From Verrucomicrobiia bacterium (lineage in GTDB: Bacteria > Verrucomicrobiota > Verrucomicrobiia > Verrucomicrobiales > DEV007): a stretch of 64,000 bases of DNA. Every line of letters begins with the position of its first letter. Within the stretch, counting starts at the first letter, position 1. The position numbers and the translations under genes were made by a program. The notes beneath the pieces were generated by a model that was given only the letters and a program-made list of their open reading frames with translations, was not told the origin of the DNA and made no database searches. Positions 45,929 to 62,997 of the stretch are shown in pieces. The DNA lies in assembly GCA_030425385.1 (NCBI GenBank), contig JAUIAH010000006.1, positions 186,001 to 250,000 of the forward strand, given 5' to 3'.

Positions 45929-47386
45929 ATGACACGACGCCCCTGGCTGATCGCCTCTTGCCTGCTGCTCACTTCCATCGAGGCCTGGACGGCCACCGTT
46001 CCTGAAGGCCTGCAATCGACTGTCTTTGCAGGGCCTGACATCGTGCCTTCACCAGCCTGTCTGTGCGCCGCCCCCACGGGCGAGGTCTTTGTCGGGGTGG
46101 ATGAGAATGGTTCGCTTGGCAAGAAGCCTGGCAAGGGACGCATCGTACGACTGATCGATGACGATCACGACGGCAAGGCTGACAGACACACCATCTTTGC
46201 TCGTGTCGATAACCCGCGCGGACTCATTGCTCTGGGCGATCGCCTTTTCGTCTTACACACGGTGATCCCGGCCGATACCGGCGTCCTCACGGGAATGCAT
46301 CTCTCCGTCTTCACAGACGCCGATCAGGATGGCGTGGCCGACGGACCACCCACACGACTCGTTTCCGATGTTTCCGTGCCCAAGCACAATCAGGATCGAG
46401 GAGCCGATCACACGACCAATGGCATCGTCATGGGCATCGATGGATGGATCTACATCGCTGTGGGCGACTTCGGCATGGTCGATGCACGAGGCTCCGACGG
46501 CACTCTATTGACAATGTTAGGTGGCGGCATTGTCAGGGTGCGACCCGACGGCACGGAGATGGAAATCTACACCCATGGGACACGAAACATCTACGACCTC
46601 GCCATCGATCCCTTTCTGAACATCTACACCCGTGGAAACACGAATGATGGCGGTGGCTGGAACGTGCGTTTCCTGCACCACGTGCAGTCGGCCGAGTACG
46701 GCTATCCCACGCGGTTCAAGCACTTCACCGGAGAGATTCTTCCCGCGTTGGCAGACTTGGGTGGTGGGTCAGGAACGGGAGCCTTGTACTTTGATGAACC
46801 TGGCTGGCCCGAGCCGTATACGGGTGTGCCCCTCATGGCTGATTGGGGGCGAAGCCAACTCGTCCTGCACCGTCTCACCCCGGATGGGGCCAGTTTCCAA
46901 CAGCAACCTGAATCCTTCATCCGATCCTCCCAAATTGCGGATCTCGATGGGGATGGTTCTGGGCGTCTCTATCTCGCTGCCTGGGATGGCGCTGGCTACA
47001 AAGGGAGCTCGGAGAAGGGCTTTGTGGATCGCGTCGTGCCTGAAGGCTGGAAATATCAGCCCTTTCCCGATCTCCACGCCCTCGACAATGCCGAACTCGT
47101 CACCCTGCTGCGCGAACCGAGCGCGGTGATGCGCTTGCACGCACAGCAAACCCTCGTGCAACGCAAGGCGCCAATCGTGCCTGTGTTAGACCTCGCTTGG
47201 GACGAGACCGCCTCCAAGGAATCACGCGTCGCGGCCGTGTTCACAGCGAAACAGTTAGGCGCAGATACGAGCCAGTTGGTCCAGTTTGCCGCCCATCCCG
47301 CAATGCGCGCGTTTGCCCTTCGCGCCATGACTGATCGCCTCTCACAGATGGACGACGTTCCGGTTGGACTCATTCGCCAGTCTTAA
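45929..47386 (+). CDS. PVC-type secreted sugar-dehydrogenase-like beta-propeller protein, 5' part of an interrupted gene
   Basis: The 485-residue product has a signal peptide (MTRRPWLIASCLLLTSIEA) and a beta-propeller resembling soluble PQQ-dependent sugar dehydrogenases, with 'DHTTNGIVMGIDGWIYIAVGD' and 'GTRNIYDLAIDP' segments. The last 100 residues enter HEAT repeats. It ends in TAA at 47384-47386, but the same frame continues straight into more HEAT repeats and a heme-c domain (next entry). In planctomycetes and verrucomicrobia these parts form one long 'membrane-bound dehydrogenase' protein. The stop therefore looks like a nonsense change or a base error in one gene. Confidence 0.85.
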   Translation: MTRRPWLIASCLLLTSIEAWTATVPEGLQSTVFAGPDIVPSPACLCAAPTGEVFVGVDENGSLGKKPGKGRIVRLIDDDHDGKADRHTIFARVDNPRGLIALGDRLFVLHTVIPADTGVLTGMHLSVFTDADQDGVADGPPTRLVSDVSVPKHNQDRGADHTTNGIVMGIDGWIYIAVGDFGMVDARGSDGTLLTMLGGGIVRVRPDGTEMEIYTHGTRNIYDLAIDPFLNIYTRGNTNDGGGWNVRFLHHVQSAEYGYPTRFKHFTGEILPALADLGGGSGTGALYFDEPGWPEPYTGVPLMADWGRSQLVLHRLTPDGASFQQQPESFIRSSQIADLDGDGSGRLYLAAWDGAGYKGSSEKGFVDRVVPEGWKYQPFPDLHALDNAELVTLLREPSAVMRLHAQQTLVQRKAPIVPVLDLAWDETASKESRVAAVFTAKQLGADTSQLVQFAAHPAMRAFALRAMTDRLSQMDDVPVGLIRQS

Positions 47387-47404: not shown

Positions 47405-48520
47405 GTGCAAGCTGCCGCTGCCATTGCCTTAGGGCGCTTGGGAGATCCGAGTGCGGCAGAAGCTCTCCTGGCCATCGCTCATCCGCCAACAGGGACCTTC
47501 AAACCACAACCCGATGCGTCAGAGGGCCCCCATGCTGTTCCCCATGCCGCTCTTGTCGTGCCTCATCTGGCCATCCAGGCCCTTACCAAGATCGGCCATC
47601 ATGAGGCAAGTCTCAAGGCCCTCACAGGCCCACACCGTTCCGCTGCTTTGTGGGCTCTCCAATACGCGCACGATTCAGAGGCCATCGAGAGCCTCATCGC
47701 CCACCTGTCAGAGGAAACAGACTCGGTGCGCCGACTCGAAATCCTGGCATTACTCGCACGCCTCTACCACCGCGAGGCCCCCTACGACGGCAGCTGGTGG
47801 TGGGGCACCCGGCCGGATACCCGCGGACCCTATTACAAACTCGCTAAGTGGGAGAAGAGTGGAGCGATTCATGAGGCGCTTCTCGCTGCCATGGCCACAG
47901 GCGATCAGACCACCAAGCAGGCCCTCATCTTCTGGAATGAACGTCTCCGACTGAACATTGATGCCCTCAAGGCACCAGAGACGGAACGTGCCGAAGCCAC
48001 AGAAGGAGAACCCAAGGTCCACCTGACAAAGATCGCCAATAAACCTGGCGAAGTGGGCAAGACATCGATCGAAGATGTGATGCTTGCGTTAGACACTCTC
48101 AAGGGCGATCCCAAACGTGGGGAAGCGCTCTTCGTCCAACAAGGTTGCCTCGCCTGCCACACCACGAGCAGTGACCAACCGCTCAAAGGCCCCTACATGG
48201 GACAAGTCGGAGCCATCCTTTCTCCAGAGCAGATTGCCGAATCCATCCTCAAACCGAACGCCTCCATCTCACAAGGCTTTGCCACGGTGCAGATCGATCC
48301 CGTAGAAGGCGCGAGTCTCGTTGGATTCGTCACCGCAGAAACGGCAGATGCCATTGAACTCCGCGATATTGGTGGCCAGGTCCACAAGGTGAAGGCAAAT
48401 CAGGTGAAAGCGCGCCAGGAATTGGAGATGTCCATGATGCCTGCGGGATTGGCCAACGCCCTCAGTCTGCAGGACTTCGCCTCGCTCATCGCTTACTTGG
48501 CCGGGCTCAAGAAAGGATAG
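47405..48520 (+). CDS. HEAT-repeat plus heme-c domain, 3' part of the interrupted dehydrogenase gene
   Basis: This frame is in register with the preceding gene and separated only by the TAA at 47384. It encodes HEAT-like repeats ('VQAAAAIALGRLGDPSAAEAL') and a cytochrome c domain with C-L-A-C-H around base 48146, then the conserved 'SILxPNASISQGFATVQI' type segment typical of PVC heme domains. As a free gene it would start at GTG 47405 without a ribosome binding site or signal peptide. It would then be cytoplasmic and could not receive heme c. Reading it as the C-terminal half of the upstream gene is much more sensible. Confidence 0.8.
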   Translation: MQAAAAIALGRLGDPSAAEALLAIAHPPTGTFKPQPDASEGPHAVPHAALVVPHLAIQALTKIGHHEASLKALTGPHRSAALWALQYAHDSEAIESLIAHLSEETDSVRRLEILALLARLYHREAPYDGSWWWGTRPDTRGPYYKLAKWEKSGAIHEALLAAMATGDQTTKQALIFWNERLRLNIDALKAPETERAEATEGEPKVHLTKIANKPGEVGKTSIEDVMLALDTLKGDPKRGEALFVQQGCLACHTTSSDQPLKGPYMGQVGAILSPEQIAESILKPNASISQGFATVQIDPVEGASLVGFVTAETADAIELRDIGGQVHKVKANQVKARQELEMSMMPAGLANALSLQDFASLIAYLAGLKKG

Positions 48521-50740: not shown

Positions 50741-51712
50741 ATGTCCAATCGCTATCGTAATCTCTATCCCCATTCTCCTCATGGCCTCTGGCAAATACTC
50801 CAATGGAAGTGCCACTTTCGCCATGAGGCAACGCCTACCATTGACGACAAATGGAAATGCCCACAGGACGTGATTCCTCAGGCGCCGAATCACAAACTAC
50901 TCAATCATCCCTCTGCTACCGCAATTCAGATCACCTGGATTGGACATGCAAGCTTTCTGGTTCAAGCAAAGGGCTTGAATTTCCTCTTTGACCCGGTCTT
51001 TGAGCAACACTGTTCGCCAATTCCACTACCAGGAACGAAACGACATCAACCACCCGCCCTCGTTCGAAGCGAACTTCCCTCGATTCACGGGATCTTTATC
51101 AGTCACAATCACTATGATCACCTGGAGCAGGCCACAGTCCGCTATTTAGGAAAAGAAACATTCTACCACATTCCAAACGGTAATGGCCCTTGGCTTCTTA
51201 AACACGGCGGACCCCACTATCGTGAGTATTCTTGGTGGGATTCTCATGGCTTCGGAGACTTTTCTGTCCACTGCGTTCCTGCTCAACATTTCTCCTCCCG
51301 CGGTCTGCACGACCGTAACCTCTCTCTGTGGTGCGGCTGGATTCTGGAAATCGATGGACTTCTACTCTACTATGTAGGAGACACTGGATACGCACCGATC
51401 TTTCACACTATCAGCGAGCACTTTGGCCCTATGGATATCGCTATCATTCCTATCGGTTGCTATAGCCCACGATGGGTGATGCGAGGCGTTCACGTTGATC
51501 CTGATGAAGCGGTTCGAATTCACGAGGACGTCGGGGCACAGCTCTCACTTGCATCGCATTGGGGATCATTCACTCTCACTGACGAATCGCTGGATACCCC
51601 TCCCGCCCGTCTCCGCCAAGCGTTAGTAAAGAAAGGCCTCTCGAGGGACAAATTTAGAATCCTACGAGTGGGCGAGACAATCAGCGTCACTCTCAGACCA
51701 AATGATGATTGA
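50741..51712 (+). CDS. Metallo-beta-lactamase-fold hydrolase (NAPE-PLD/UlaG-like)
   Basis: The 323-residue protein carries the metal motif HNHYDH (residues 122-127), 'ITWIGHASFLVQ', 'LYYVGDTGYAP' and 'LASHWGSFTL', the set found in the N-acylphosphatidylethanolamine phospholipase-D-like branch. It probably binds two zinc or iron ions and hydrolyses a phosphodiester or lactone; the substrate is unknown. No signal peptide is evident. It starts six bases after the epimerase stop but its base composition is clearly more AT-rich, so the closeness may be an insertion boundary rather than an operon. Confidence 0.85.
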   Translation: MSNRYRNLYPHSPHGLWQILQWKCHFRHEATPTIDDKWKCPQDVIPQAPNHKLLNHPSATAIQITWIGHASFLVQAKGLNFLFDPVFEQHCSPIPLPGTKRHQPPALVRSELPSIHGIFISHNHYDHLEQATVRYLGKETFYHIPNGNGPWLLKHGGPHYREYSWWDSHGFGDFSVHCVPAQHFSSRGLHDRNLSLWCGWILEIDGLLLYYVGDTGYAPIFHTISEHFGPMDIAIIPIGCYSPRWVMRGVHVDPDEAVRIHEDVGAQLSLASHWGSFTLTDESLDTPPARLRQALVKKGLSRDKFRILRVGETISVTLRPNDD

Positions 51713-52067: not shown

Positions 52068-52078
52068 GGACTTTTCAT

Positions 52079-52097
52079 GTCCCGCTCCAGTCGGGAC
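52079..52097. other. Short perfect hairpin before the response-regulator gene
   Basis: GTCCCG (52079-52084) and CGGGAC (52092-52097) form a six-base-pair GC-rich stem with a seven-base loop. It lies 12 bases after the preceding stop and about 50 bases before the response-regulator start. No T-run follows, so it is not a standard terminator. It may slow transcription or shape the mRNA leader. Confidence 0.35.
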
Positions 52098-52145
52098 GCG
52101 AAGCTATATCCTCTCCAACAACTTGAAAACCACCCCAACCGATGT

Positions 52146-52811
52146 ATGAGAATTCTTGTAGCCGAAGACAATGAGAAAGTAGCAAATCACGTGGCCAATG
52201 GGCTCCGCGAAGCCTCTTATACCGTCGATATCGCAAATGACGGAGACGATGCCGTCTGGATGGCAGAAACAACGCCCTACGACATCATCGTGATGGATGT
52301 GATGATGCCGGTAAAAGACGGATTCAGCGCAGTCAAACAACTTCGCCGGAAAAAGGTAATCACTCCCGTCATCATGTTAACCGCACGGGGCGAAGTAGAA
52401 GACCGTGTCCGAGGACTAGACAGCGGAGCAGATGATTATCTAACCAAGCCATTCTCAATGGTCGAATTGCTTGCCCGCGTCCGAGCCCTCGGGCGCCGAC
52501 ACAAAGGAGAGGTACACAATCACATACGCGTACAAAACCTTGAGCTCGATATTTCAATGCGAAGTGCCAAGCGTGGCGAACGTGAGATTGAACTCACCAA
52601 TCGGGAGTTCGCGCTCTTGGAGTTTCTTATGTTCAGTTCTCCTCGACCCGTAAGCAAAACAGCTATCCTAGAACATGTATGGGACCAATACTTTGACTCG
52701 AGCAGTAATGTTGTCAATGTATATGTTAGACATCTCAGGGAGAAGATCCAACCGGAAGGTGAAGAACCTCTCATCCACACTGTCCGTGGCGTCGGATTTG
52801 TAATTCGATAA
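52146..52811 (+). CDS. OmpR/PhoB-family response regulator
   Basis: The 221-residue protein has a receiver domain with Asp7/Asp8-region acidic pocket ('VAEDNE'), phosphorylation site Asp51 ('VMDVMMP'), and Lys101 ('LTKPF'). A winged-helix DNA-binding domain (about 128-221) ends 'HTVRGVGFVIR'. It activates or represses genes when phosphorylated by its partner kinase. ATG 52146 is the normal family start (MRILVAED). The kinase gene follows after eight bases. A phased TTAA array 1.6 kb downstream is a candidate target. Confidence 0.93.
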   Translation: MRILVAEDNEKVANHVANGLREASYTVDIANDGDDAVWMAETTPYDIIVMDVMMPVKDGFSAVKQLRRKKVITPVIMLTARGEVEDRVRGLDSGADDYLTKPFSMVELLARVRALGRRHKGEVHNHIRVQNLELDISMRSAKRGEREIELTNREFALLEFLMFSSPRPVSKTAILEHVWDQYFDSSSNVVNVYVRHLREKIQPEGEEPLIHTVRGVGFVIR

Positions 52812-52819
52812 CCCATCAA

Positions 52820-53887
52820 ATGAGATCCCTGCGCATCCGCCTCGTCGTTTGGTTCACTTTAGGAATCCTCGCGGTCACTCTAGTATTCTCAGCGGCGACC
52901 TACCTACATCTCTACGAAGAACTACATGAAAAGCAAGTTGAACTCGCCTACCCCGACCACCCTGACTGGCGACTCCACGGAAACTCTTCAAGTGAAGAAA
53001 TCCGCGATATCATGCGTGAGATCATGCAAGTTGCTGTCCTGTTCGCAGCGCCCTTCTTAGCCGCCGTTGTCCTCATAGGATACTTTATTGCCGGAAAATC
53101 TCTCAAACCGATCGCCGAATTAAACGAGCAAATGTCAAATCTCACGCCCGCGACAATTGGCGCCCCCATCAAAAGCAGCGCCCGCGATTCTGAGTTCCAG
53201 TCCCTTACAGCACACCTCAACGCGCTCCTAGAACGCTTAGATCAATCTTTCAACGATATCCGGGAATACGCAGCCCAGATTGCCCATGAATTACGGACGC
53301 CACTTACCATCCTTCGTCTAAAAGTCGAGCAATCAGATCAATTAATTGATCCTAAGCTCCAAGAGGAGTTGCAGGAAGAGTTACATCGCCTCAGCCAAAT
53401 GGTCGATCACTCCCTCTTGATTGCACGTTCAGAAAAGGGAACTCTTAATTGGTCCAATCACGAAGTCAACGTTTCGGAATTAGTCAGCGAACTCCAAGAA
53501 GACTTTCAACTGCTAGCAAGTGAGCACCAGCGCCCTCTACGCGCAAACATTAGCACTAACTGCCTAGCTAAAACGGATCGCCAACATCTAAAACAGATCT
53601 TGCAAGGGCTATTCTCCAACGCCTTGAAACACGGTAACGGTGCCATTGCCGTCCGACTATCACCCATGCAACGCGGAAGGAATATCCACTTTCTAATCGT
53701 CAACGAGATATCCACTTCACAGGATGACAGCAAATCGTCAACACAAGGCCTTGGCCTCGGATTGCGAGTGGTTCAAGCTCTTTTGAACTTACAAAGCGGG
53801 ATCAAGTTTCAGCGACATCACGGCCATCGATACTACGCTGCCCGCTTGATCCTGCCCACGGTAGAGCGAACAACCCAACTCACTTGA
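52820..53887 (+). CDS. Sensor histidine kinase
   Basis: The 355-residue kinase has two membrane helices (about 8-28 and 70-92) around a short periplasmic loop, a HAMP segment and the dimerisation/phosphoacceptor helix with 'IAHELRTPLTIL' (His156). The ATP-binding domain has the N box 'NALKHG' and a glycine-rich 'GLGLGLRVV', but the usual DxGxG box is 'VNEISTS', so ATP binding may be altered. The periplasmic loop is only about 40 residues and contains 'HPDWRLHGNSS'. Its stop overlaps that of the convergent gene at 53880 by eight bases. Confidence 0.9.
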   Translation: MRSLRIRLVVWFTLGILAVTLVFSAATYLHLYEELHEKQVELAYPDHPDWRLHGNSSSEEIRDIMREIMQVAVLFAAPFLAAVVLIGYFIAGKSLKPIAELNEQMSNLTPATIGAPIKSSARDSEFQSLTAHLNALLERLDQSFNDIREYAAQIAHELRTPLTILRLKVEQSDQLIDPKLQEELQEELHRLSQMVDHSLLIARSEKGTLNWSNHEVNVSELVSELQEDFQLLASEHQRPLRANISTNCLAKTDRQHLKQILQGLFSNALKHGNGAIAVRLSPMQRGRNIHFLIVNEISTSQDDSKSSTQGLGLGLRVVQALLNLQSGIKFQRHHGHRYYAARLILPTVERTTQLT

Positions 53888-54365
53888 AGTAGTTTTCAAC
53901 CTTCTCTTCCTGAGGATTCCAGAAACGCACCGCACTGATGATCCCTTTCGCATCAAGGGTCAAGACGGTCACGAATCCCTTTCTTTGAGGGAACGAATCT
54001 AGAAGTCCTTTTTCGTCGGCAAGGATGATTTGATGCGGATATTTCCGCATTCTAGGCATAGCGAAGACCCGGCCAATCTTTGGCATTCCGTAGATATTCG
54101 CTACGAATACCGCACGCTTCCCCGGCAAGAACTCGCTCCCAAGAGCCTCAAATTGTCTATTGGCATTCTTAGCGACCCCCATCTCAAAGCTAAAGAGAGC
54201 GTACCTCGGACCCGCCTTGACTTGCACAGCTCGACCGTGCTGGTCAGTTGTTTGAAACGCCTTGATCTTCTCGCCAACTTTGAGAATCGCCGACTCTTCG
54301 TCAGCCGAACTGAAGGAGGTCATGGAAAAATAAAGTACCGACAAAAGAAGTGATCTAATAACCAT
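53880..54365 (-). CDS. Secreted thioredoxin-fold-like protein lacking CxxC
   Basis: The 161-residue protein has a signal peptide (MVIRSLLLSVLYFSMTSFSSA) and an AhpC/TlpA-like layout: 'KVGEKIKAFQTTDQHGRAVQV', 'GPRYALFSFEMG' and a later 'QIILADEKGLL'. The active-site cysteines expected after the second segment are missing ('MGVAKNANRQF'), and no cysteine is present in the mature chain. A redox role is therefore unlikely; a binding or accessory role is possible. It faces the YceI gene across a 137-base divergent region. Confidence 0.6.
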   Translation of the reverse strand: MVIRSLLLSVLYFSMTSFSSADEESAILKVGEKIKAFQTTDQHGRAVQVKAGPRYALFSFEMGVAKNANRQFEALGSEFLPGKRAVFVANIYGMPKIGRVFAMPRMRKYPHQIILADEKGLLDSFPQRKGFVTVLTLDAKGIISAVRFWNPQEEKVENYFK

Positions 54366-54502: not shown

Positions 54503-55051
54503 ATGAAGATTCTCACTCTCGTTCTCCTGGTGACATTTGGTAACGCAGCGATTGGAAACAGTGCAGAAATCGCATTCGACCTTAAACGCAGCAGGATTGA
54601 AGTCCATGTCAAAGCCACCGGGCACGATTTCTCTGGAGTTCTCAACAATTACAAGGCAGTAGCCACCATTGACGATCAATTGAACCCCACATCGGGGAAG
54701 CTCGATTGGGACTTTTGCGATCTCAAGACAGGAAACGACAAGCGCGATCGAAAGATGATAGAGTGGATCTCACCGAATCTTACAAAAGCCTCCTTTACGT
54801 TCTCCAAATGGCGTATCCTTGAAGATGGCCGAACTTTAGTCGAGGGAGAGATGAACATCCATGGGGTAAAAAAGAAGGTTAGGTTCCCTGTCACTCTCAG
54901 ACGAACGGGACTCGAGATCTCTGTAACTGGAAGCGCTGTGGTCGACCATACGGATTTCCAGCTCCCAATCATCTCCTTCCTCGCATTCCTTAAGGTGGAC
55001 CCAAGGATCACAGTTACTTTCACTATGAAAGGGAAACTGAAGGAGAAATAA
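54503..55051 (+). CDS. Secreted YceI-family lipid-binding protein
   Basis: The 182-residue protein has a signal peptide (MKILTLVLLVTFGNAAIGNSA) and the eight-stranded YceI lipocalin-like domain. Diagnostic stretches are 'FDLKRSRIEVHVKATGHDFSG', in pieces, 'WISPNLTKASFTFSKW' and 'MNIHGVKKKVRFPVTL'. YceI proteins bind isoprenoid chains such as polyprenyl phosphates or quinones in the periplasm. That fits the polyprenyl-synthase gene which starts 18 bases after its stop. The start lies just downstream of a TATACA box (54491-54496) and may have a very short leader. Confidence 0.88.
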   Translation: MKILTLVLLVTFGNAAIGNSAEIAFDLKRSRIEVHVKATGHDFSGVLNNYKAVATIDDQLNPTSGKLDWDFCDLKTGNDKRDRKMIEWISPNLTKASFTFSKWRILEDGRTLVEGEMNIHGVKKKVRFPVTLRRTGLEISVTGSAVVDHTDFQLPIISFLAFLKVDPRITVTFTMKGKLKEK

Positions 55052-55069: not shown

Positions 55070-56008
55070 ATGTCTCTTCCTCTCAAAGCCGTCAGATTGA
55101 CACCATCTATCGCAAAAGCCTATGTCAATCAATTCCCTGTCAGCCCTGACATAGAAACAAACCTTGCAGGAGCAATCCGTCAAGTTCTCAATAATCCTGG
55201 AAGTCTCATCCGAGCATCTCTTGCGTTTCAGGCGGGTCGTGCCTTTGAACTACGACGTGATTGTGCCGAGAGCCTCGCAATTGGAATTGAGTACATGCAT
55301 TCCGCCTCCCTCCTCTTCGATGACCTGCCAATGATGGATGATGCCTCCGAGCGTCGCGGGCACACCTGCCCGCATATCCTTTACGGTGAGGCTGCTTGTG
55401 TATTAGCCGCGCTCGCATTTATTAATCGCGGTTACGCTCTCCTTTGGAGTTCAATGGCTGCCTATTCACTGAATAGCGATGAGGCCGCGCATCGTATCGA
55501 GCATTGCCTCGGTTTGAAAGGAATGCTCACGGGGCAAAGCCAGGATCTTCATCGGCCCGGAGGCTGGCCAGCCCATGATGTGCTTCGCGTTTCCATCGGG
55601 AAGACCGTCGCATTGATACGACTTACTCTTGTCTTGCCTGCCGTATTGAGCGGTGCGAGAAAACGTGTCGTGCATCAGTTGGACCGTATAGGCGTTTATT
55701 GGGGATTGAGCTATCAGATCCTCGATGATCTTAAAGATCTTGGTATCGAGAAGAAGTATACGGGTAAGACCACACATCGCGATGAGACACTGGGACGTCC
55801 CAATTTTGCATTGGCAGCGGGAATGGCAAGATGTCAATCCTATCTCGCCCGACTTCTAGAACTGAGTCAAACAAACCTTGCCGCTCTTACTCGCCTGCAC
55901 CCTGGCCTCAGCTTCCTCACGACCACTCAAGAACGGTTGGAGTTGGAGTGTAGTCAATTTCTTTCTCCCACCAAGAAACAAGAAAGCGAGCGAAAAATAA
56001 AGATATGA
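55070..56008 (+). CDS. Polyprenyl (trans-isoprenyl) diphosphate synthase-like protein
   Basis: The 312-residue protein has both aspartate-rich motifs: DDLPMMDD (residues 84-91) and DDLKD (219-223). These bind magnesium diphosphate in farnesyl/geranylgeranyl synthases, and 'GQSQDL' is the usual mid-sequence motif. The region that normally reads GGKRxRP instead reads 'NNPGSLIRASL', so one substrate-binding lysine is missing and activity is uncertain. It would make an isoprenoid chain or a related product. Its stop overlaps the ABC permease start (56005). Confidence 0.86.
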   Translation: MSLPLKAVRLTPSIAKAYVNQFPVSPDIETNLAGAIRQVLNNPGSLIRASLAFQAGRAFELRRDCAESLAIGIEYMHSASLLFDDLPMMDDASERRGHTCPHILYGEAACVLAALAFINRGYALLWSSMAAYSLNSDEAAHRIEHCLGLKGMLTGQSQDLHRPGGWPAHDVLRVSIGKTVALIRLTLVLPAVLSGARKRVVHQLDRIGVYWGLSYQILDDLKDLGIEKKYTGKTTHRDETLGRPNFALAAGMARCQSYLARLLELSQTNLAALTRLHPGLSFLTTTQERLELECSQFLSPTKKQESERKIKI

Positions 56009-57114
56009 CATTACTTCGTCTGATCCTTACCAATACTCAACGTCATTGCATCCGCACGTTGATTGGTGTTGCCGGTATCGCCTTTGGAGTGGCAGCGATG
56101 ATGACCGTAGTCACCCTTCTCCAAGGAGCAGTCAACATGTTTCAACGCATCCTGAAGGACGATAGTGAAATCATCGTCTTCGAGCGGCACGTTTCCGATC
56201 TCTTTTTTAGCAATGTAGCGATTTCCGATATTGAGATCATGGGCACATGGCCGATGGTCGAACAGGTTTTGCCATCCCTTTTTGGACTCGTCTCAAGTGA
56301 AGATAGGCCAGTCATCGCCTGCTTTGGAGTAACAGCCGATTCCCCTCGGCTCAAAGGAGCGGAGTGGATTGAGGGAAATCTGTCGGACTTCGGCCAATCG
56401 CGCGACATTGTTTTAGGTAGTCGAGCAGCGGAATTTCTTGGAGTGAAGCTCGGGGATTCGGCACCTCTGGGGCACGATTCATTTCCAGTAGGCGGCATCA
56501 TTCGTACGGAGAACGGGTTTGAAGATGGTGGTGTGTTTATGCCCTTGGCACAGGCACAAGAATTCTTTCACAAAAATGGTGTAGCTTCCATTGCGTCCGT
56601 CTCTCTCTTTGACGATGATCTGCGTGAAGCGTTCATCGCAAAGGTGAAGGAAGGGTTTCCTGATCTCACGGCGTTGGAAACAGAGGAGTTTGGGAATAGC
56701 TATTCACAGTTTCGGATCATCGAGGCTACAGCTTGGGCGGTGGGTGGATCTGCTTTTCTATTGGGTGGCCTGAGTGTGGCCAATACGATGATCATGTCTG
56801 TTTTTGGACGAATACGCGAGATTGCAATTCTGCGTGTCAATGGATTCTCGCCGACCCAGATCGCCAGTTTGATCTTTGGTGAATCTTCGGTGATCACGTT
56901 CTTCGGAGTGGCGCTGGGCATTGGAGTGGGATTTGGAACAATGCTTGTTCTCCAACGGGTCCCGCTTTTCCAAGGCTATGTCGATACCCAACTGCATGGC
57001 AGTGTCTTGGGAGTTGTAGTTGCTCTCGCTTTTGTGACAGGCATTGGAGGGGCGCTCTACCCAGCTTTGTACGCGATGCGTATACACCCTGCAGAAGCCC
57101 TTCGATTTGAATGA
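56005..57114 (+). CDS. ABC transporter permease, FtsX/MacB/LolC type
   Basis: The 369-residue membrane protein has one N-terminal helix (about residues 20-42), a periplasmic MacB-like domain (about 45-240) and three C-terminal helices, the FtsX-type plan. The segment 'MSVFGRIREIAILRVNGFSPTQIASLIFGES' in pieces is the typical coupling helix. Such permeases extract or export lipophilic or protein substrates mechanically rather than by alternating access. It is coupled at both ends by ATGA overlaps. Confidence 0.9.
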   Translation: MTLLRLILTNTQRHCIRTLIGVAGIAFGVAAMMTVVTLLQGAVNMFQRILKDDSEIIVFERHVSDLFFSNVAISDIEIMGTWPMVEQVLPSLFGLVSSEDRPVIACFGVTADSPRLKGAEWIEGNLSDFGQSRDIVLGSRAAEFLGVKLGDSAPLGHDSFPVGGIIRTENGFEDGGVFMPLAQAQEFFHKNGVASIASVSLFDDDLREAFIAKVKEGFPDLTALETEEFGNSYSQFRIIEATAWAVGGSAFLLGGLSVANTMIMSVFGRIREIAILRVNGFSPTQIASLIFGESSVITFFGVALGIGVGFGTMLVLQRVPLFQGYVDTQLHGSVLGVVVALAFVTGIGGALYPALYAMRIHPAEALRFE

Positions 57115-57818
57115 ACACTTGCAATTCCATCAAACCCATAATCGAGTTCTGCAATCTATGGAAGAGTTTCGATCACGATAGAATCCAGGTTCTAAGAGGA
57201 GCTAGTCTTAGTCTCGAGGCCAAGGAAACCGTGGCCTTAGTCGGGGCGTCAGGGTGCGGCAAGTCAACGCTCTTACATCTAATTGCAGGTCTGGATGAAC
57301 CCGATCAGGGCGTGGTATATATTGAAGGGAAAGCGCTAAACAAATGCAGGGAGTTGACCTATCGTTTACGCCATCAGATTGGCTTTGTGTTTCAACTGCA
57401 CAACCTCATCCCAAATCTTACTCTGCGAGAGAACTGTTTGATCCCTGCAGTAGCTGCGGGGACGAACCGTAAGCAAGCGAAGGCACGGCTAGAACGTTTG
57501 GCAGAGGCGACCGGTATCGCCGATAGGCTTCATCATCGGATTCAGGATCTGTCTGGCGGTGAGCGGCAGCGCACGGCTCTTTGCCGTGCCTTGATGAACG
57601 GTCCTCAGATCATTCTTGCAGATGAACCGACAGGATCCTTGGACGATGTGAGTCGTGTGAGGGTGTTCGAGTTGCTGCTGAAGTTGATGCGGGAGGAAGG
57701 AATTACCATGATTATGGCCACTCACGATCTCGACCTGGGACGACGATGCGATCGAGTGATTCGCGTGCAACGAGGCACCCTCTTCGACGAAACTTCGGAC
57801 CACCAACCATCATTATGA
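57111..57818 (+). CDS. ABC transporter ATP-binding protein, LolD/MacB type
   Basis: The 235-residue ATPase has Walker A GASGCGKST (residues 45-53), the LSGGERQR signature and Walker B 'IILADEPTGSLDD', followed by 'MATHDLDLGRRCDRVI'. It energises the permease encoded just upstream. ATG 57111 overlaps the permease stop and its TGA overlaps the next ATG (57815). Coupling to a respiratory gene is unusual and suggests that the transporter serves that module. Confidence 0.93.
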   Translation: MNTCNSIKPIIEFCNLWKSFDHDRIQVLRGASLSLEAKETVALVGASGCGKSTLLHLIAGLDEPDQGVVYIEGKALNKCRELTYRLRHQIGFVFQLHNLIPNLTLRENCLIPAVAAGTNRKQAKARLERLAEATGIADRLHHRIQDLSGGERQRTALCRALMNGPQIILADEPTGSLDDVSRVRVFELLLKLMREEGITMIMATHDLDLGRRCDRVIRVQRGTLFDETSDHQPSL

Positions 57819-59176
57819 CAGGACCCTCTCAGAGTAAGTTGATCGCCATTAGCCTCCGGGAGACAAAGCGGATAGCATTGTCTCGGAGAAGAGCGAAAGA
57901 TCGGATTCTGGATGAAAGTATATTTGTACCTGACGGTGCAAATACCGCTATCACCCATGCATTCTTTTGGATGTTCATGGCTAACGGCGTGGGGATAGCT
58001 CTAGCTTGGCTTTTGTTGGTTCCATCTTCGGGCTATTGGATGGGCGAGCTCACCTATGGGCGCTGGATTCCTGTGCATTTGAATCTTCATCTTTATGGAT
58101 GGACGAGTCTTCCCCTTGTTGCTTGGCTATTGCGCTTGTATGCGCCTCAAGATGATCATCCGTCGGCGGCAGCACGTGCAAGTGTATGGGCATGGTCAAT
58201 GTCATTGATGGTGGGGGCGATTGCTTGGCTTCGCGGAGAGACTAGCGGAAAAATCTTTCTCGATTGGATCGGCCTTGCACGTGTGCTTTACCCTACGGTC
58301 ATGCTTTTTCTTTGGAGTGTTCTCTTCCGGCAATGGTGGGCGAATCGGCAGGTACCGGGATGGGCTCCGGTAGTACAGATGGTTGGGCTACTCATACTGG
58401 CTTCCGTACCCATGGCGGTATTCTGGGCTTCGGGACGGGAGGTCTATCCCGCAGTGAATGCTGACTCCGGAGGACCCACGGGCATGAGTTTGCTTGGTTC
58501 TACCTTGATAGTGGTGCTTTTGCTACTTCTCGTACCTCAACTTCAGAATCGCGCTACTTGGGGACAGAAGCTAGTGATTCCCCGTTTGTGTTGGCTCACG
58601 TTTCTATTCCAAGTCGGCATTGTGATGACCCTCGGTTTTCACCACGCCACTCACCATGACTGGCACCAATGGTTAGGATTAGGAACACTCGCTAGTTGGA
58701 TCATTCTGATGCCTCTCTACTATCGTGGATTCCTCTGGCCACCGAAGTCCATGCGTTGGCAGAGGGCGATGCTGTTTTGGTTTGGTCTTCTAGTAGCAAC
58801 CGGGTGGCTATCCTTCCTACCGAAGGTCCTGGATCACCTCAAATTCACGGACGCGCTGGTTGCCCACACACATCTGGCAATGGCTGGTTTTGTCACTAGC
58901 TTTAATCTTTTCCTGATTGGTTTGCTAGCTCCTTCCTCCCTGGCCGATCATATTCATCGGCCCATAGCATTCTGGTTGTGGAATGGCGCTACGGCTACCT
59001 ACGTGATCGTCATGTGGGTAGCCGGAGCGTTCGAAGGTGCAGATCCCTCCTTCACCATTATTCGGGGAATCGCGCGTGAACTCCTCTATGCGATCCGCTT
59101 CACGGCTGGTTTGGTCCTGTTTTGTGTATCCCTCATTTGGTGGCGCGCCGCTCGCTCGGCGATGATTCAACGTTAG
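57815..59176 (+). CDS. CcoN-like heme-copper-oxidase subunit I homologue lacking a CuB ligand
   Basis: The 453-residue protein has twelve predicted helices with the spacing of cbb3 oxidase subunit I. Likely heme ligands are His88 in helix 2 ('HLNLHLYGW'), and His351 and His353 in helix 10 ('AHTHLAMAGF'). His276-His277 in helix 7 ('GFHHATHHDW') match two CuB ligands. In helix 6, where CcoN has W-x-G-H-N, this protein reads 'SGGPTGMSLL', so the third CuB histidine is absent. The active-site tyrosine position before His276 is not tyrosine. Heme binding is plausible; oxygen reduction is doubtful. ATG 57815 is fixed by its overlap with the ABC gene stop. Confidence 0.78.
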   Translation: MTGPSQSKLIAISLRETKRIALSRRRAKDRILDESIFVPDGANTAITHAFFWMFMANGVGIALAWLLLVPSSGYWMGELTYGRWIPVHLNLHLYGWTSLPLVAWLLRLYAPQDDHPSAAARASVWAWSMSLMVGAIAWLRGETSGKIFLDWIGLARVLYPTVMLFLWSVLFRQWWANRQVPGWAPVVQMVGLLILASVPMAVFWASGREVYPAVNADSGGPTGMSLLGSTLIVVLLLLLVPQLQNRATWGQKLVIPRLCWLTFLFQVGIVMTLGFHHATHHDWHQWLGLGTLASWIILMPLYYRGFLWPPKSMRWQRAMLFWFGLLVATGWLSFLPKVLDHLKFTDALVAHTHLAMAGFVTSFNLFLIGLLAPSSLADHIHRPIAFWLWNGATATYVIVMWVAGAFEGADPSFTIIRGIARELLYAIRFTAGLVLFCVSLIWWRAARSAMIQR

Positions 59177-59178
59177 TC

Positions 59179-59598
59179 ATGCCCAGGTCTCTTCTCCAAA
59201 GGTATCAATGGATCGCTGGCATCGCAGACGCCTCCACCGGCGTCTGCCTCCTAACGGCTCCGGCACATACTATGCGCCTGTTGGGCGTCAGCATTTCTCC
59301 TGCTCAAGGTCCGTATCTTTCGTACATTGGAGTCTTCGTCCTCGGGATCGGTCTCAGCTACTTCCTATGCGGACGGCTCCGCCATGAAGTTGCATCGCGC
59401 ATCCGCTGGGAAATGACCTGGAAGATCACCGCTCTTTGCCGCTCCTTGGTCGCCATTTTTGTCGTCACATTCGTCGCTTTGGGAAAACTGACCACACCCT
59501 GGTTGATCGTCGCGTGTACGGATGCGACAATGGCCTGTTTTCAGTGGATCGGCCTCAATCGGCGCTGGCTGCATCTGCATAGGGAGGTGCGTTTATGA
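59179..59598 (+). CDS. Small four-helix membrane protein of the CcoN-like operon
   Basis: The 139-residue protein is mostly hydrophobic, with about four helices (for example 'YIGVFVLGIGLSYFLC' and 'ITALCRSLVAIFVVTFVAL'). I know no family for it. It starts two bases after the CcoN-like stop and overlaps the MFS-cytochrome start (ATG 59595), where a GGGAGGTG ribosome site lies inside its last codons. It is probably a small subunit or assembly factor of the same complex; that is inference from position. Confidence 0.7.
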   Translation: MPRSLLQRYQWIAGIADASTGVCLLTAPAHTMRLLGVSISPAQGPYLSYIGVFVLGIGLSYFLCGRLRHEVASRIRWEMTWKITALCRSLVAIFVVTFVALGKLTTPWLIVACTDATMACFQWIGLNRRWLHLHREVRL

Positions 59599-61484
59599 TT
59601 CCCAGTCTCCAATCGATCTCGTGGCGGAGTACTGGGCTCATCACGGCGACCTATTTCTACTTCTTGATTTTTGCCCAATTTGCGTTTCTGAAGGCAATCG
59701 AACTAACTGGAGAAGCGGCTTCATTGAAACTGGTGATGGGCACCATGGGATTTGCAGGAATCTTAGGGAGCTTGACATCTCCTTTGTTTCTCAAGCATTG
59801 GGAGTGGAAGATTGTGCTTCGAATAGGATTTCTGAGTTGTGGAATGATGGCATTTCTAAGTCTAGCTTCTTGGACTAGCGCTCACGCTTGGAGCATGATC
59901 GCAGGGGGGATCGGATTCTCGCTCGGCATCGTTACGGTAACATTGGTTAGCCAACTCAGAAATCTCTCAGGCAATCATCATTGGGGAATGAGTGGAGGCC
60001 TCGGCACTGGCTTGGCATACTTCACCTGTAATGTTCCCGCCGTCTTTCGTGCTTCACCGTTCGATCAATCTCTCATTGCCGGTATCGTTTGTGTAGCAGC
60101 ATTCTTTGGGACGAGTATCAAGATTGAATCGTCGTCGATTCAAGAGATGAGGCAATCGAGTCCAGAGATGCATGCTCCCTTTGTTGTCATGTTGTTGGCT
60201 TTCACACTCCTCATCTGGCTTGATTCAGCGGCATTCTTTATCATCCAGAACGACCGTGAACTCCTGGGAAGCACATGGGGGAGCGATACACTTCTGTGGC
60301 GCAATGGGAGTGTACATTTGTTGGTAGCCGTGTTCGCAGGTTGGTGGTTAGAATCGAGGAATTCGCTCAGCCCTGTCTTTCTTGCACTTGGCATACTCGC
60401 GGTAGCATCGTGGCTGGTGAATGACGCCCTTACACGTGAGGTCGGAGGAGCTATCTATCCTGTCGGGGTATCTCTCTATTCCACCTGCTTGGTGGTATTC
60501 CCTGCCTATTGGCTTGGTCATCTATCACTTCATCGTAGGACATTTCTTGCCTCCCTCCTCTATGCCGTTGCAGGGTGGCTTGGTTCTGGCATGGGCATAG
60601 GTATGGCCGAGAACCTACACCGAGTGCCCCTCGCGTTTGTAATGGTGGTTCTTGGATTCACAGGTGTGGTTCTTGCTCACGAATGGCTGAGGAAATACTG
60701 CAGAGAATTGGCCACTTGTACGACTCTTCTTGCTCTCGCCTTTGTCGGATCCGAGCTTCAAGGAAATGCCGTTCTCTCCTCTCAGGCTAGCATTTCCTCT
60801 ATCCATAATGGGCGCGAGGTATATGTATCTGAAGGGTGTATCCACTGCCATTCCCGCTATGTTCGACCTAGCGAAGACGACATCACCAACTGGGGACCGC
60901 AAGTGTCTTACGAAGAAGCCTTAAAGGAATGCCCTCCTCTCTTTGGCAATCGGCGACAAGGTCCCGATTTACTCAACGTTGGATTGAGGCGTTCGCGTGC
61001 GTGGTTAAAAGCACATTTCATTAATCCGCAACTTCTCGTCCCCATGAGTACGATGCCTCGCTACGACTATCTTTTTAGTGATGATCGCGGCGAATCACTC
61101 ATCGATTTCCTGATGGATCCCCAAGCCAGTGCGAAAGCCCGTTACGAGACCATTCAGAATTGGAATCTCACGTATCCGTCCGATGCATCTCATGAAGTTT
61201 CCAACGCTTGGAAACTCTTTCAGCACCATTGTAGCGCCTGTCATGGAGAAGACGGAATGGGCAATGGCGAAGCAAGGGCGGACTTAGCACGTTCACCCGC
61301 CAACTTGCGCTACGGTCCGTTCATCTATAGCAGAGATCCGAAGGAGATTCCGAGAATCCTTAAGTTCGGGATCATGGGCACAGACATGCCCGGGCACGAG
61401 TACATTCCCGATAGTGATATCATCGCAATCTCCAGTTATGTCAAGAGCTTACGTCATTCTCCTCATTCATATTCAACCCCATGA
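59595..61484 (+). CDS. Fusion of an MFS-like membrane domain with CcoO-like and CcoP-like cytochrome c domains
   Basis: The 629-residue protein has about twelve hydrophobic helices in residues 10-390 with the outline of a major-facilitator-type carrier. It continues into a CcoO-like domain: 'GREVYVSEGCIHCHSRYVRP' includes C415-x-x-C-H419 and 'MSTMPRYDYLF' supplies the methionine ligand, as in mono-heme subunit CcoO. A second domain 'FQHHCSACHGEDGMGNG' (C546 to H550) with 'GTDMPGHEY' resembles one CcoP heme domain. Two c-type hemes would face the periplasm. The start ATG 59595 has a strong ribosome site. It probably carries electrons to or from the CcoN-like protein. Confidence 0.85.
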   Translation: MIPSLQSISWRSTGLITATYFYFLIFAQFAFLKAIELTGEAASLKLVMGTMGFAGILGSLTSPLFLKHWEWKIVLRIGFLSCGMMAFLSLASWTSAHAWSMIAGGIGFSLGIVTVTLVSQLRNLSGNHHWGMSGGLGTGLAYFTCNVPAVFRASPFDQSLIAGIVCVAAFFGTSIKIESSSIQEMRQSSPEMHAPFVVMLLAFTLLIWLDSAAFFIIQNDRELLGSTWGSDTLLWRNGSVHLLVAVFAGWWLESRNSLSPVFLALGILAVASWLVNDALTREVGGAIYPVGVSLYSTCLVVFPAYWLGHLSLHRRTFLASLLYAVAGWLGSGMGIGMAENLHRVPLAFVMVVLGFTGVVLAHEWLRKYCRELATCTTLLALAFVGSELQGNAVLSSQASISSIHNGREVYVSEGCIHCHSRYVRPSEDDITNWGPQVSYEEALKECPPLFGNRRQGPDLLNVGLRRSRAWLKAHFINPQLLVPMSTMPRYDYLFSDDRGESLIDFLMDPQASAKARYETIQNWNLTYPSDASHEVSNAWKLFQHHCSACHGEDGMGNGEARADLARSPANLRYGPFIYSRDPKEIPRILKFGIMGTDMPGHEYIPDSDIIAISSYVKSLRHSPHSYSTP

Positions 61485-62575
61485 TTCCTGACATCTTAAC
61501 ACAAATTCACGGGTTTAGTCGTGGTTTGGTTGGCACTTCTAAGGATTTCATCTTTCTCCGCCTTCCTAGCGGTGCTTTCGCACTCGGAACCGGACCATTC
61601 ATTCGGAGTGTAGATATGCCAAGCCAACCATCGTTTTACATCAATAATTTCGCTCAAACGTATAAACAGGGTTGGTTACGTCCCAAAAAATATCAAGAGA
61701 CGGCCAGCCTCTCCTCTGCCTTGAAGGAGCTCTCATGGGAGCATCCACGAATTCATTGGCAACCTCCATCTCATTCTCTCTTTCAACAAGCATTCCGCAC
61801 GGCCACGTTCTACTTGTCGACGGGACGAATTCAGAAACTGGTTCCCGTGATTGTACAGTCAGGACACCTGTGCCACGGTCGAGTTGAGAATCTGGTCTGT
61901 GCTCTTGAGACTTTATCCGAACAGTATCATCCTTATGGTTGCCGCTTTGGCAATACGGGTATGTTAGGTGGATCTCCTGAGCCCCTAGCTACTATTGAAG
62001 GTGATCGGCTGACTACGATGGCTTTAGCGGGCACCGCGCCATCTTTTAAGGCTCACGCACTTACACGGGATAAAGAACAGCGCGAACACGGCTGTGTGAG
62101 TGCCTTCCTCTCAGAGCATCTGAGTATGTTGGGAGATACGCGTCAACTAATCACTAAACCTATGAGGCTAGGATCAATTACACATCTGCTCACGAAATTT
62201 GAGACTCACCTTGGCCACCGTCCCGATCCCGAGCAAATATTGCGCTTACTCCATCCAACACCCGCAGTCGGACCATCCCCTCGGACAAATCAATCAATGG
62301 CGCTGGCAACCGCCCTGAGAAACCTCACCGGGTGCCCAAGCTCATTTGGAGCTCCCCTCGCCGTTCACTGTGACGGTGCCTTTCATGCTATACTCACAAT
62401 ACGCCAGATACTCTGGAAACGAACACAAGTCCTACTTCCTTCCGGCTGTGGAATTGTCCGGGGATCGAATGTCGACGACGAGTGGGAGGAACTATTCCTC
62501 AAGCGAGAATCCGTAAAGCGATTTCTCGGTCTGCCCAACTCGGTTGAGGAAACCCCGCAGGCACTTTCCGTATAA
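61481..62575 (+). CDS. Chorismate-binding enzyme, isochorismate-synthase-like
   Basis: The 364-residue enzyme has the chorismate-utilising fold: 'GGSPEPLATIEGDRL' and 'TMALAGTAP', 'LHPTPAVGPSPR', and 'LPSGCGIVRGSNVDDEWEE'. The 'ALAGT' wording favours isochorismate synthase (MenF/EntC) over anthranilate synthase, which usually reads PIAGT. Isochorismate leads to menaquinone or salicylate. The arrangement beside a polyprenyl synthase suggests a quinone. Other menaquinone genes are not in the window. It overlaps the MFS-cytochrome stop by four bases. Confidence 0.8.
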   Translation: MIPDILTQIHGFSRGLVGTSKDFIFLRLPSGAFALGTGPFIRSVDMPSQPSFYINNFAQTYKQGWLRPKKYQETASLSSALKELSWEHPRIHWQPPSHSLFQQAFRTATFYLSTGRIQKLVPVIVQSGHLCHGRVENLVCALETLSEQYHPYGCRFGNTGMLGGSPEPLATIEGDRLTTMALAGTAPSFKAHALTRDKEQREHGCVSAFLSEHLSMLGDTRQLITKPMRLGSITHLLTKFETHLGHRPDPEQILRLLHPTPAVGPSPRTNQSMALATALRNLTGCPSSFGAPLAVHCDGAFHAILTIRQILWKRTQVLLPSGCGIVRGSNVDDEWEELFLKRESVKRFLGLPNSVEETPQALSV

Positions 62576-62577
62576 AC

Positions 62578-62997
62578 TTGAGGTTACCACCGCTTCGATT
62601 GCACCGATTTATCAACGAGATCCCATTCTGGCTAGACGCCGTTCGGCTTAGAACGCTGTCTGCTCTGTTCATTCCCATTGCCATAAGCCTAGTCGTTAAC
62701 TTGAGAGTGAGTGTGGGCTGTTGGGCACTGATGGGCGGCGCAATCTGGGTGGCATTCTACCTCCACTTGGCAATTGAACTCTTGCACTTTCGCTGCTTTC
62801 GTTGGGTGCAGCGTCCTGCACCATACCTTTCAAAGCGTAAGGTTACCATTGCCTCTCTTTTGTCATTTTTTAAAGCAGGGTTCCTCACTATTCCCCTCAC
62901 GTTTATTCCCGGTGCCAGAGAAATCTTAGAATGGGTCATGGTCTTTTACATTGGCTACGCTCTCGTCACGCTGAAACTCTTTCAAACATCTGACTGA
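62578..62997 (+). CDS. Small membrane protein at the end of the operon
   Basis: The 139-residue protein has three hydrophobic stretches (about 30-46, 49-70 and 93-133). It begins with a TTG at 62578, two bases after the previous stop; no in-frame ATG gives a full first helix. No family is recognised. A UbiA-type prenyltransferase would be expected for a quinone pathway, but this is far too short and lacks its aspartate motifs. It converges with the kinase-like gene, the stops being four bases apart. Confidence 0.6.
   Translation: MRLPPLRLHRFINEIPFWLDAVRLRTLSALFIPIAISLVVNLRVSVGCWALMGGAIWVAFYLHLAIELLHFRCFRWVQRPAPYLSKRKVTIASLLSFFKAGFLTIPLTFIPGAREILEWVMVFYIGYALVTLKLFQTSD

Follow-up and report, generated by a model that had tools for sequence, protein, structure and literature searches.

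What does a protein do that joins a transporter-type membrane domain to two cytochrome c domains in one reading frame? The question is raised by a gene at positions 59595..61484 (+ strand) of a 64,000-nucleotide stretch of the Verrucomicrobiia bacterium assembly GCA_030425385.1 (lineage DEV007; contig JAUIAH010000006.1, forward-strand positions 186,001 to 250,000), which was analysed as a whole and is referred to here as the window. The gene starts with ATG and encodes 629 amino acids without an internal stop. An initial annotation, made from the letters alone, had read it as a major facilitator superfamily (MFS)-like carrier fused to CcoO-like and CcoP-like domains, which are separate subunits in cbb3 oxidases, and had proposed electron transfer linked to transport, or a carrier reused as a scaffold. 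Together with a CcoN-like neighbour, the fusion would form what looks like an undescribed redox machine, derived from a cbb3 oxidase and serving a new role.

Domain make-up and spread of the fusion

The reading of three domains in one frame was borne out by the open reading frame (ORF), by Pfam and NCBIfam matches and by structure prediction. The protein contains the motifs GCIHCHS, MPRYDYLF, and CSACHGEDG. The CcoO-type c-heme domain (60795..61154, +; C415-C418-H419, distal M487) is matched by Pfam FixO/CcoO (PF02433) over residues 405-519 (E 2e-26), and the CcoP-type c-heme domain (61155..61481, +; C546-C549-H550, distal M598) by Cytochrom_C/CBB3 (PF00034/PF13442) over residues 535-619 (E 3e-13 and 5e-10). 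In both domains the CxxCH motif and the distal Met are complete and invariant in 58 sequences. The fusion covers positions 202-281 only of the 285 in the NCBIfam CcoP profile, i.e. its last part, indicating that the third domain corresponds to half a CcoP and carries a single heme instead of two.

At the sequence level, the N-terminal region (residues 1-390) had no match in Pfam; a profile built from 17 relatives gave only weak matches to MFS transporters (MCT1/MCT2, E 4e-4 to 9e-4), with MFS_1 weakly matched by one of the 17. AlphaFold2, run with a 58-sequence alignment, predicted a 12-helix bundle followed by a 13th helix, with N-terminal values of the predicted local distance difference test (pLDDT) mostly >90. 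All structural matches of the modelled carrier domain (residues 1-368; 59595..60698, +) were MFS carriers (VMAT2, MCT1, GLUT3, and NorA; Z 26.8-29.4 over 324-356 residues). This match to the MFS fold, sought by the domain search and structure prediction that the annotation had suggested, rules out that the N-terminal region is an ordinary cytochrome anchor. The 13th membrane helix (residues 369-396; 60699..60782, +) is unconserved in sequence (mean column identity 0.25). Since it sits between carrier and CcoO domain, the MFS domain is an addition that precedes a normal CcoO anchor; the annotation's transporter domain 'in place of the anchor' is thus better described as one with the anchor retained. 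In the model, helix 13 stands where CcoO has its anchor, an arrangement that would place both hemes on the periplasmic side.

A genome scan that used only the window sequence as query had no hits. An alignment-based scan of 84,980 species genomes yielded 159 confirmed relatives, and the loci of the best 80, all named, were read. The MFS domain is directly followed by CcoO in all 80; nearly all are in a single frame, and nearly all also contain CcoP. The exceptions are two loci with the pieces split over two ORFs (L060 and L087), two without a CcoP match (L121 and L108), and one cut by a contig end (L091). A CcoN-like gene lies upstream of the fusion in all 80 wherever the contig extends that far, as it does in the window, so that the proposed search for the same fusion beside CcoN-like genes gave a positive answer. 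This recurrence indicates that the fusion reflects neither chance nor a base error that joined two genes, as the annotation had allowed for, nor a misassembly.

The hosts belong to Verrucomicrobiota, Acidobacteriota, and a few other groups, and many are soil and water bacteria. Named hosts include Terriglobus roseus DSM 18391, Edaphobacter modestus, Acidipila rosea, Occallatibacter savannae, and Luteolibacter pohnpeiensis, and four of the named host genomes have one copy each. Matches were found in 23 of the 388 genomes of the phylum that were searched. No homologue was found in the other searched genomes of the window's own family, suggesting that the gene is patchy within that family; its presence in 5 of 297 acidobacterial genomes drawn (T. 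roseus, the centre of the draw, included) likewise points to a patchy distribution. Searches of the openly accessible literature gave no description of such a fusion or of a CcoN without the CuB copper site.

In seven Luteolibacter-type loci (L028, L030, L042, L091, L097, L115, and L130), the CcoN-like frame runs without a stop through the small gene that follows it, which is in another frame, and into the MFS frame, giving ORFs of 1123-1376 amino acids where complete. Overprinting of the small gene was considered and is not supported: synonymous shuffling leaves the run-on frame open in 61-91% of cases, and the run-on is therefore expected from composition.

The CcoN-like subunit and the oxidase assigned to Terriglobus roseus

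The CcoN-like gene (57815..59176, +) starts with the ATG at 57815, in an ATGA overlap with the preceding gene. Its product matches the heme-copper oxidase (HCO) subunit I family PF00115 below the cut-off (E 5e-6); it has no match in NCBIfam, and no match to ccoN (TIGR00780) was found at the operon of the window genome. Its AlphaFold2 model (pLDDT 91.7) shows the 12-helix fold of HCO subunit I and best matches the cbb3 subunit CcoN (9g6b_A; Z 29.1, 385 residues aligned) and the nitric oxide (NO) reductase cNOR (Z 28.7).

The ligand columns were examined by hidden Markov model alignment to a solved CcoN and by column inspection of 53 members. Helix VI reads WWYGHN in genuine CcoN, whereas the CcoN-like family has GG[PA]TGxS, with no His there in any of the 53 sequences. 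Helix VII, which in genuine CcoN carries two adjacent His residues and the active-site Tyr, is the least conserved helix of the family (mean 0.34); the Tyr (in YSYRLSIVHFW of the genuine CcoN in L052 and L030) occurs neither in the aligned segment nor among the conserved columns, and a single His near this helix, H280, is present in 49/53. No conserved Glu of the kind found in the non-heme metal site of NorB-type NO reductases occurs in helices VI or VII, and the His of that site in helix VI is missing too. The heme ligands have been kept to a different degree: H88 in helix II (heme b) and H351 in helix X (the first His of HxH) are invariant, and the second His, H353, is kept in all but one sequence outside the Acidobacteriaceae-type group and replaced by Leu, Phe, or Ile in every acidobacterial-type sequence sampled.

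By these alignments, the CuB site is lost. Given a helix VI devoid of His and the lack of conservation in helix VII, reduction of O2 or NO by this subunit is unlikely, while electron transfer would still be possible, and we consider it highly probable that the complex is not a terminal oxidase. Nor can the system be taken for a cbb3 oxidase with one odd subunit, since the copper site is missing from the neighbouring protein. Genomes with the operon carry other, genuine terminal oxidases, and the window organism also has a genuine fused CcoNO elsewhere in its genome. A divergent second HCO subunit I gene (~140-148 bits to PF00115) was observed in the window genome (C20:110022-111254; L139) and in Luteolibacter pohnpeiensis (G469:C193:13077-14261), in both cases just upstream of an ordinary CoxA-type gene and separated from it by a CcoO-like c-heme gene.

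Genome surveys credit T. roseus KBS 63 with a type C (cbb3) oxidase (PMC5900883). Published as a high-affinity terminal oxidase, it had no measurable role at nanomolar O2; its expression was low and undetected below 10 umol/L O2, and the apparent Km of the strain was high (PMC8407424). In the genome of strain DSM 18391 (= KBS 63), we found a pair of ordinary HCO subunit I genes, in agreement with the two published A2 caa3 oxidases, and no ccoN (TIGR00780) match at E <= 0.1; the sole ccoO-like match is the MFS fusion. With no true ccoN and only this ccoO-like gene, the published T. roseus cbb3 is almost certainly the present operon, as judged from gene content, and genome surveys have probably counted the system as a high-affinity oxygen oxidase. 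If this is correct, a conserved operon of abundant soil Acidobacteriota and of Verrucomicrobiota that has been counted as a high-affinity cbb3 oxidase is no oxidase, which would explain the behaviour of the T. roseus enzyme at nanomolar O2 and would change the prediction of microaerobic capacity from genomes. Loss of the copper site from an HCO fold would be a rare event, as would the fusion of c-type cytochromes to a secondary carrier, so that redox-coupled transport would become directly testable in culturable strains.

Carrier domain, operon companions, and proposed role

Conservation within the carrier domain is concentrated in the helices that line the MFS cavity (1, 2, 4, 5, 7, 8, 10, and 11), in which 52 of 204 columns are conserved at >=90%, as opposed to 4 of 75 in the peripheral helices 3, 6, 9, and 12 (Fisher p 8e-5). 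Ten residues (Y20, N146, D210, Q218, H241, Y288, S293, Y295, S296, and W328) are invariant in the fused proteins and are also kept in six standalone relatives that lack cytochromes. In a midpoint-rooted tree, standalone copies nest within a fused Opitutaceae clade, suggesting that the cytochromes were lost secondarily and that the carrier persisted. Cavity-helix conservation and the retention of the same residues in standalone copies argue against an inert anchor, and the MFS domain is likely to be a working carrier or a ligand-binding domain, as far as sequence conservation can tell.

Standalone MFS relatives without cytochromes or CcoN were observed in seven Opitutaceae-type genomes (L041, L044, and L046, L047, L048, L049, and L050). 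The gene that follows the standalone copy in L041 resembles, by eye, a membrane sulfatase of the lipoteichoic acid synthase type, and a gene of this type also lies near the full operon in seven loci, a possible second functional link.

The usual gene order is polyprenyl synthase, LolC-like, LolD-like, CcoN-like, small membrane protein, and fusion, with YceI at one end (usually first). In the window, five junctions are ATGA overlaps. The genes, all on the + strand, encode a YceI-family periplasmic lipocalin (54503..55051; PF04264, E 3e-13; 60 loci), a polyprenyl diphosphate synthase (55070..56008; PF00348, E 1e-30; 75 loci), a LolC/MacB-like ATP-binding cassette (ABC) permease (56005..57114; PF12704 and PF02687; 78 loci), a LolD-like ABC ATPase (57111..57818; TIGR02211, 205 bits, below the cut-off; conserved in the loci), and, between the CcoN-like protein and the fusion, a membrane protein of 139 amino acids (59179..59598; no family over cut-off; in most loci). 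The operon is conserved across two phyla, and the prenyl synthase, YceI, and LolCD-like genes are its most constant neighbours. Both Asp-rich motifs of the window's prenyl synthase are intact. The -5 position of the first motif is Ala in the window and in 65/66 sequences overall, and a small residue there, by the accepted rules of chain length, favours products of geranylgeranyl diphosphate length or longer. YceI lipocalins bind octaprenyl compounds and ubiquinone-8 (PMC9113575). A prenyl synthase of this predicted chain length, YceI, and a LolCD-type exporter as constant companions point to an isoprenoid or quinone substrate.

Our best reading, to which we assign a probability of roughly 0.4, is that the operon encodes an inner-membrane redox complex of cbb3 descent which does not reduce oxygen, is coupled to an MFS carrier, and has an isoprenoid or quinone as its substrate. 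The fusion would be its largest subunit. Heme b of the CcoN-like subunit would accept electrons from, or donate them to, a lipophilic membrane compound of isoprenoid or quinone-like nature, and would exchange electrons with the cytochrome c pool by way of the two c hemes in the periplasm. The MFS domain would translocate this compound, or the precursor of its head group, across the membrane; its passage through the periplasm would fall to the LolCD-like ABC proteins and YceI. A link between electron transfer and transport, as the initial annotation had suggested, is plausible; the identity of the substrate, the direction, and the coupling of transport to electron flow are guesses. The assignment of the substrate to isoprenoids or quinones is tentative in its own right, at somewhat less than even odds. 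It is doubtful that the complex represents a new class of membrane machine, a redox-powered secondary transporter of an isoprenoid, quinone, or metal, whose MFS carrier would be driven or gated by electrons passing through the two c hemes and a retired HCO subunit of the same complex.

Several points weigh against this reading. The loss of the CuB site is a conclusion from alignments, and without H353 a bis-His heme b may not form in the acidobacterial-type members. The link to quinones is drawn from neighbouring genes. One of these, an isochorismate-synthase-like chorismate-binding gene directly behind the fusion (61481..62575, +; PF00425, E 3e-28; TIGR00543 below cut-off; in an ATGA overlap with the fusion), lies within the operon in two distant lineages, the window and a Thermoanaerobaculia metagenome-assembled genome (L108), which speaks for the link, though in just 2 of ~95 neighbourhoods. 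As the window genome holds three other chorismate-binding matches, its value as proof of quinone synthesis is weakened. Finally, a metal substrate would agree with the two-component system nearby, which comes closest to heavy-metal types.

Redox-coupled metal import is accordingly the main rival, although we regard it as unlikely. By analogy with the proposal for MamZ, Fe(III) or Cu(II) would be reduced at the periplasmic hemes and the resulting ion taken up by the MFS domain fused to them. D210 and H241, both intramembrane, are among the invariant residues, and M51, C145, and M337 are mostly conserved. The response regulator (OmpR-type; 52077..52811, +) and the histidine kinase (52820..53887, +) are nearest the CzcR/SilR/CopR and CzcS/SilS/CopS heavy-metal subfamilies, but score below and well below the respective cut-offs; homologues occur in 37 and 47 neighbourhoods, counts that are upper estimates because they come from single-linkage clusters of large families. 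Metal import would also leave the most constant neighbours, the prenyl synthase, YceI, and LolCD-like genes, without a reason, and the copper motifs of CcoA/CalT, defined as MxxxM in transmembrane helix (TM) 7 and HxxxM in TM8 (PMC6362234), are absent: TM7 of the fusion reads WLDSAAFFIIQ and TM8 has H241xxxA245, both columns being conserved.

Less likely again is an MFS domain that no longer carries anything and serves as a scaffold, for assembly or for lipid/heme, in a complex that only moves electrons, close to the scaffold that the annotation had envisaged. Its fusion to redox domains, the near absence of MFS_1 matches described above, and the lack of a motif-A-like GxxxDRxGR between TM2 and TM3 would suit such a role. 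A pure scaffold, however, is disfavoured by the conservation, concentrated in cavity helices 1, 4, 5, 7, 8, 10, and 11, with almost none in helices 3, 6, 9, and 12, and by the cytochrome-less copies that retain the same residues.

A genuine but unusual O2 or NO reductase, with other residues in place of the CuB/FeB ligands, is improbable to a slightly greater degree. It would account for the cbb3-like fold, the CcoO/CcoP partners, the invariant heme-b3-type His H351, the frequent H280, and the published annotation of T. roseus (PMC5900883), but not for a helix VI without His in all members, an unconserved helix VII, the further loss of H353 in acidobacterial-type members, or the low expression, undetected below 10 umol/L O2, and the high apparent Km reported for that strain (PMC8407424). 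A copper-delivery or assembly factor for other oxidases, by analogy with CcoA, an MFS copper importer needed for cbb3 (PMC5829832), might fit the heavy-metal-like regulators but is very improbable, as the fusion has neither copper motif, its own CcoN-like partner needs no CuB, and T. roseus has the operon and no cbb3 to assemble; a CcoA-like copper importer is itself ruled out by the absent motifs.

The preferred reading, a cbb3-derived redox complex coupled to a carrier, shares features with several known systems. Like cbb3 oxidases (CcoNOP, HCO type C), it combines a CcoN fold (Z 29), a CcoO heme domain with anchor helix, and a CcoP-type heme domain in adjacent genes; it differs from them in lacking the CuB ligands and active-site Tyr (and H353 in acidobacterial-type members), in having CcoO, half a CcoP, and an MFS carrier joined in one protein, in the extra small membrane protein, and in the prenyl synthase, YceI, and ABC genes of the operon. 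From NorB-type NO reductases it differs by the missing His/Glu of the non-heme metal site. MamZ of magnetotactic bacteria also unites an MFS carrier and a heme-redox domain in one protein, for which coupling of redox reactions to transport has been proposed (PMC3905215). Its redox part, however, is a membrane YedZ/ferric-reductase-like domain, which Pfam did not find behind the MFS domain here; the fusion ends in CcoO- and CcoP-type domains with two periplasmic c hemes and has a CcoN-like partner. CcoA/CalT is likewise an MFS protein tied functionally to cbb3-type subunits and has polar sites in TM7/TM8, but the fusion lacks its motifs, is joined to cytochromes, and has a partner without CuB. 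In BcnA-LcoA, which protects against lipid peroxidation (PMC9113575), a YceI lipocalin is encoded with a heme-b membrane protein, cytochrome b561, and there is a shared isoprenoid/quinone theme; the membrane redox part here is instead a degenerate HCO with an MFS-cytochrome c fusion, accompanied by a prenyl synthase and an ABC exporter. The parts thus come from known families, and by its features the combination is none of cbb3 oxidase, NO reductase, CcoA-type importer, or MamZ.

Outer neighbours and minor observations

In addition to the heavy-metal-like two-component system, frequent outer neighbours of the operon are a metal-dependent hydrolase of the metallo-beta-lactamase fold (50741..51712, +; PF12706, E 2e-37; 25 neighbourhoods) and a small protein with a signal-peptide-like start (53880..54365, - strand; no Pfam or NCBIfam match; 23 neighbourhoods). 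Right after the isochorismate-synthase-like gene, positions 62578-62997 encode a membrane protein of 139 amino acids whose start resembles UbiA/MenA by eye; it is short and matches no family. Further upstream, a repeat-rich protein with the c-type heme motif CLACH (47405-48520) lies downstream of a pyrroloquinoline quinone/sorbosone-dehydrogenase-like gene (45929-47386), a pair that, judged by eye only, is a common verrucomicrobial and planctomycetal arrangement.
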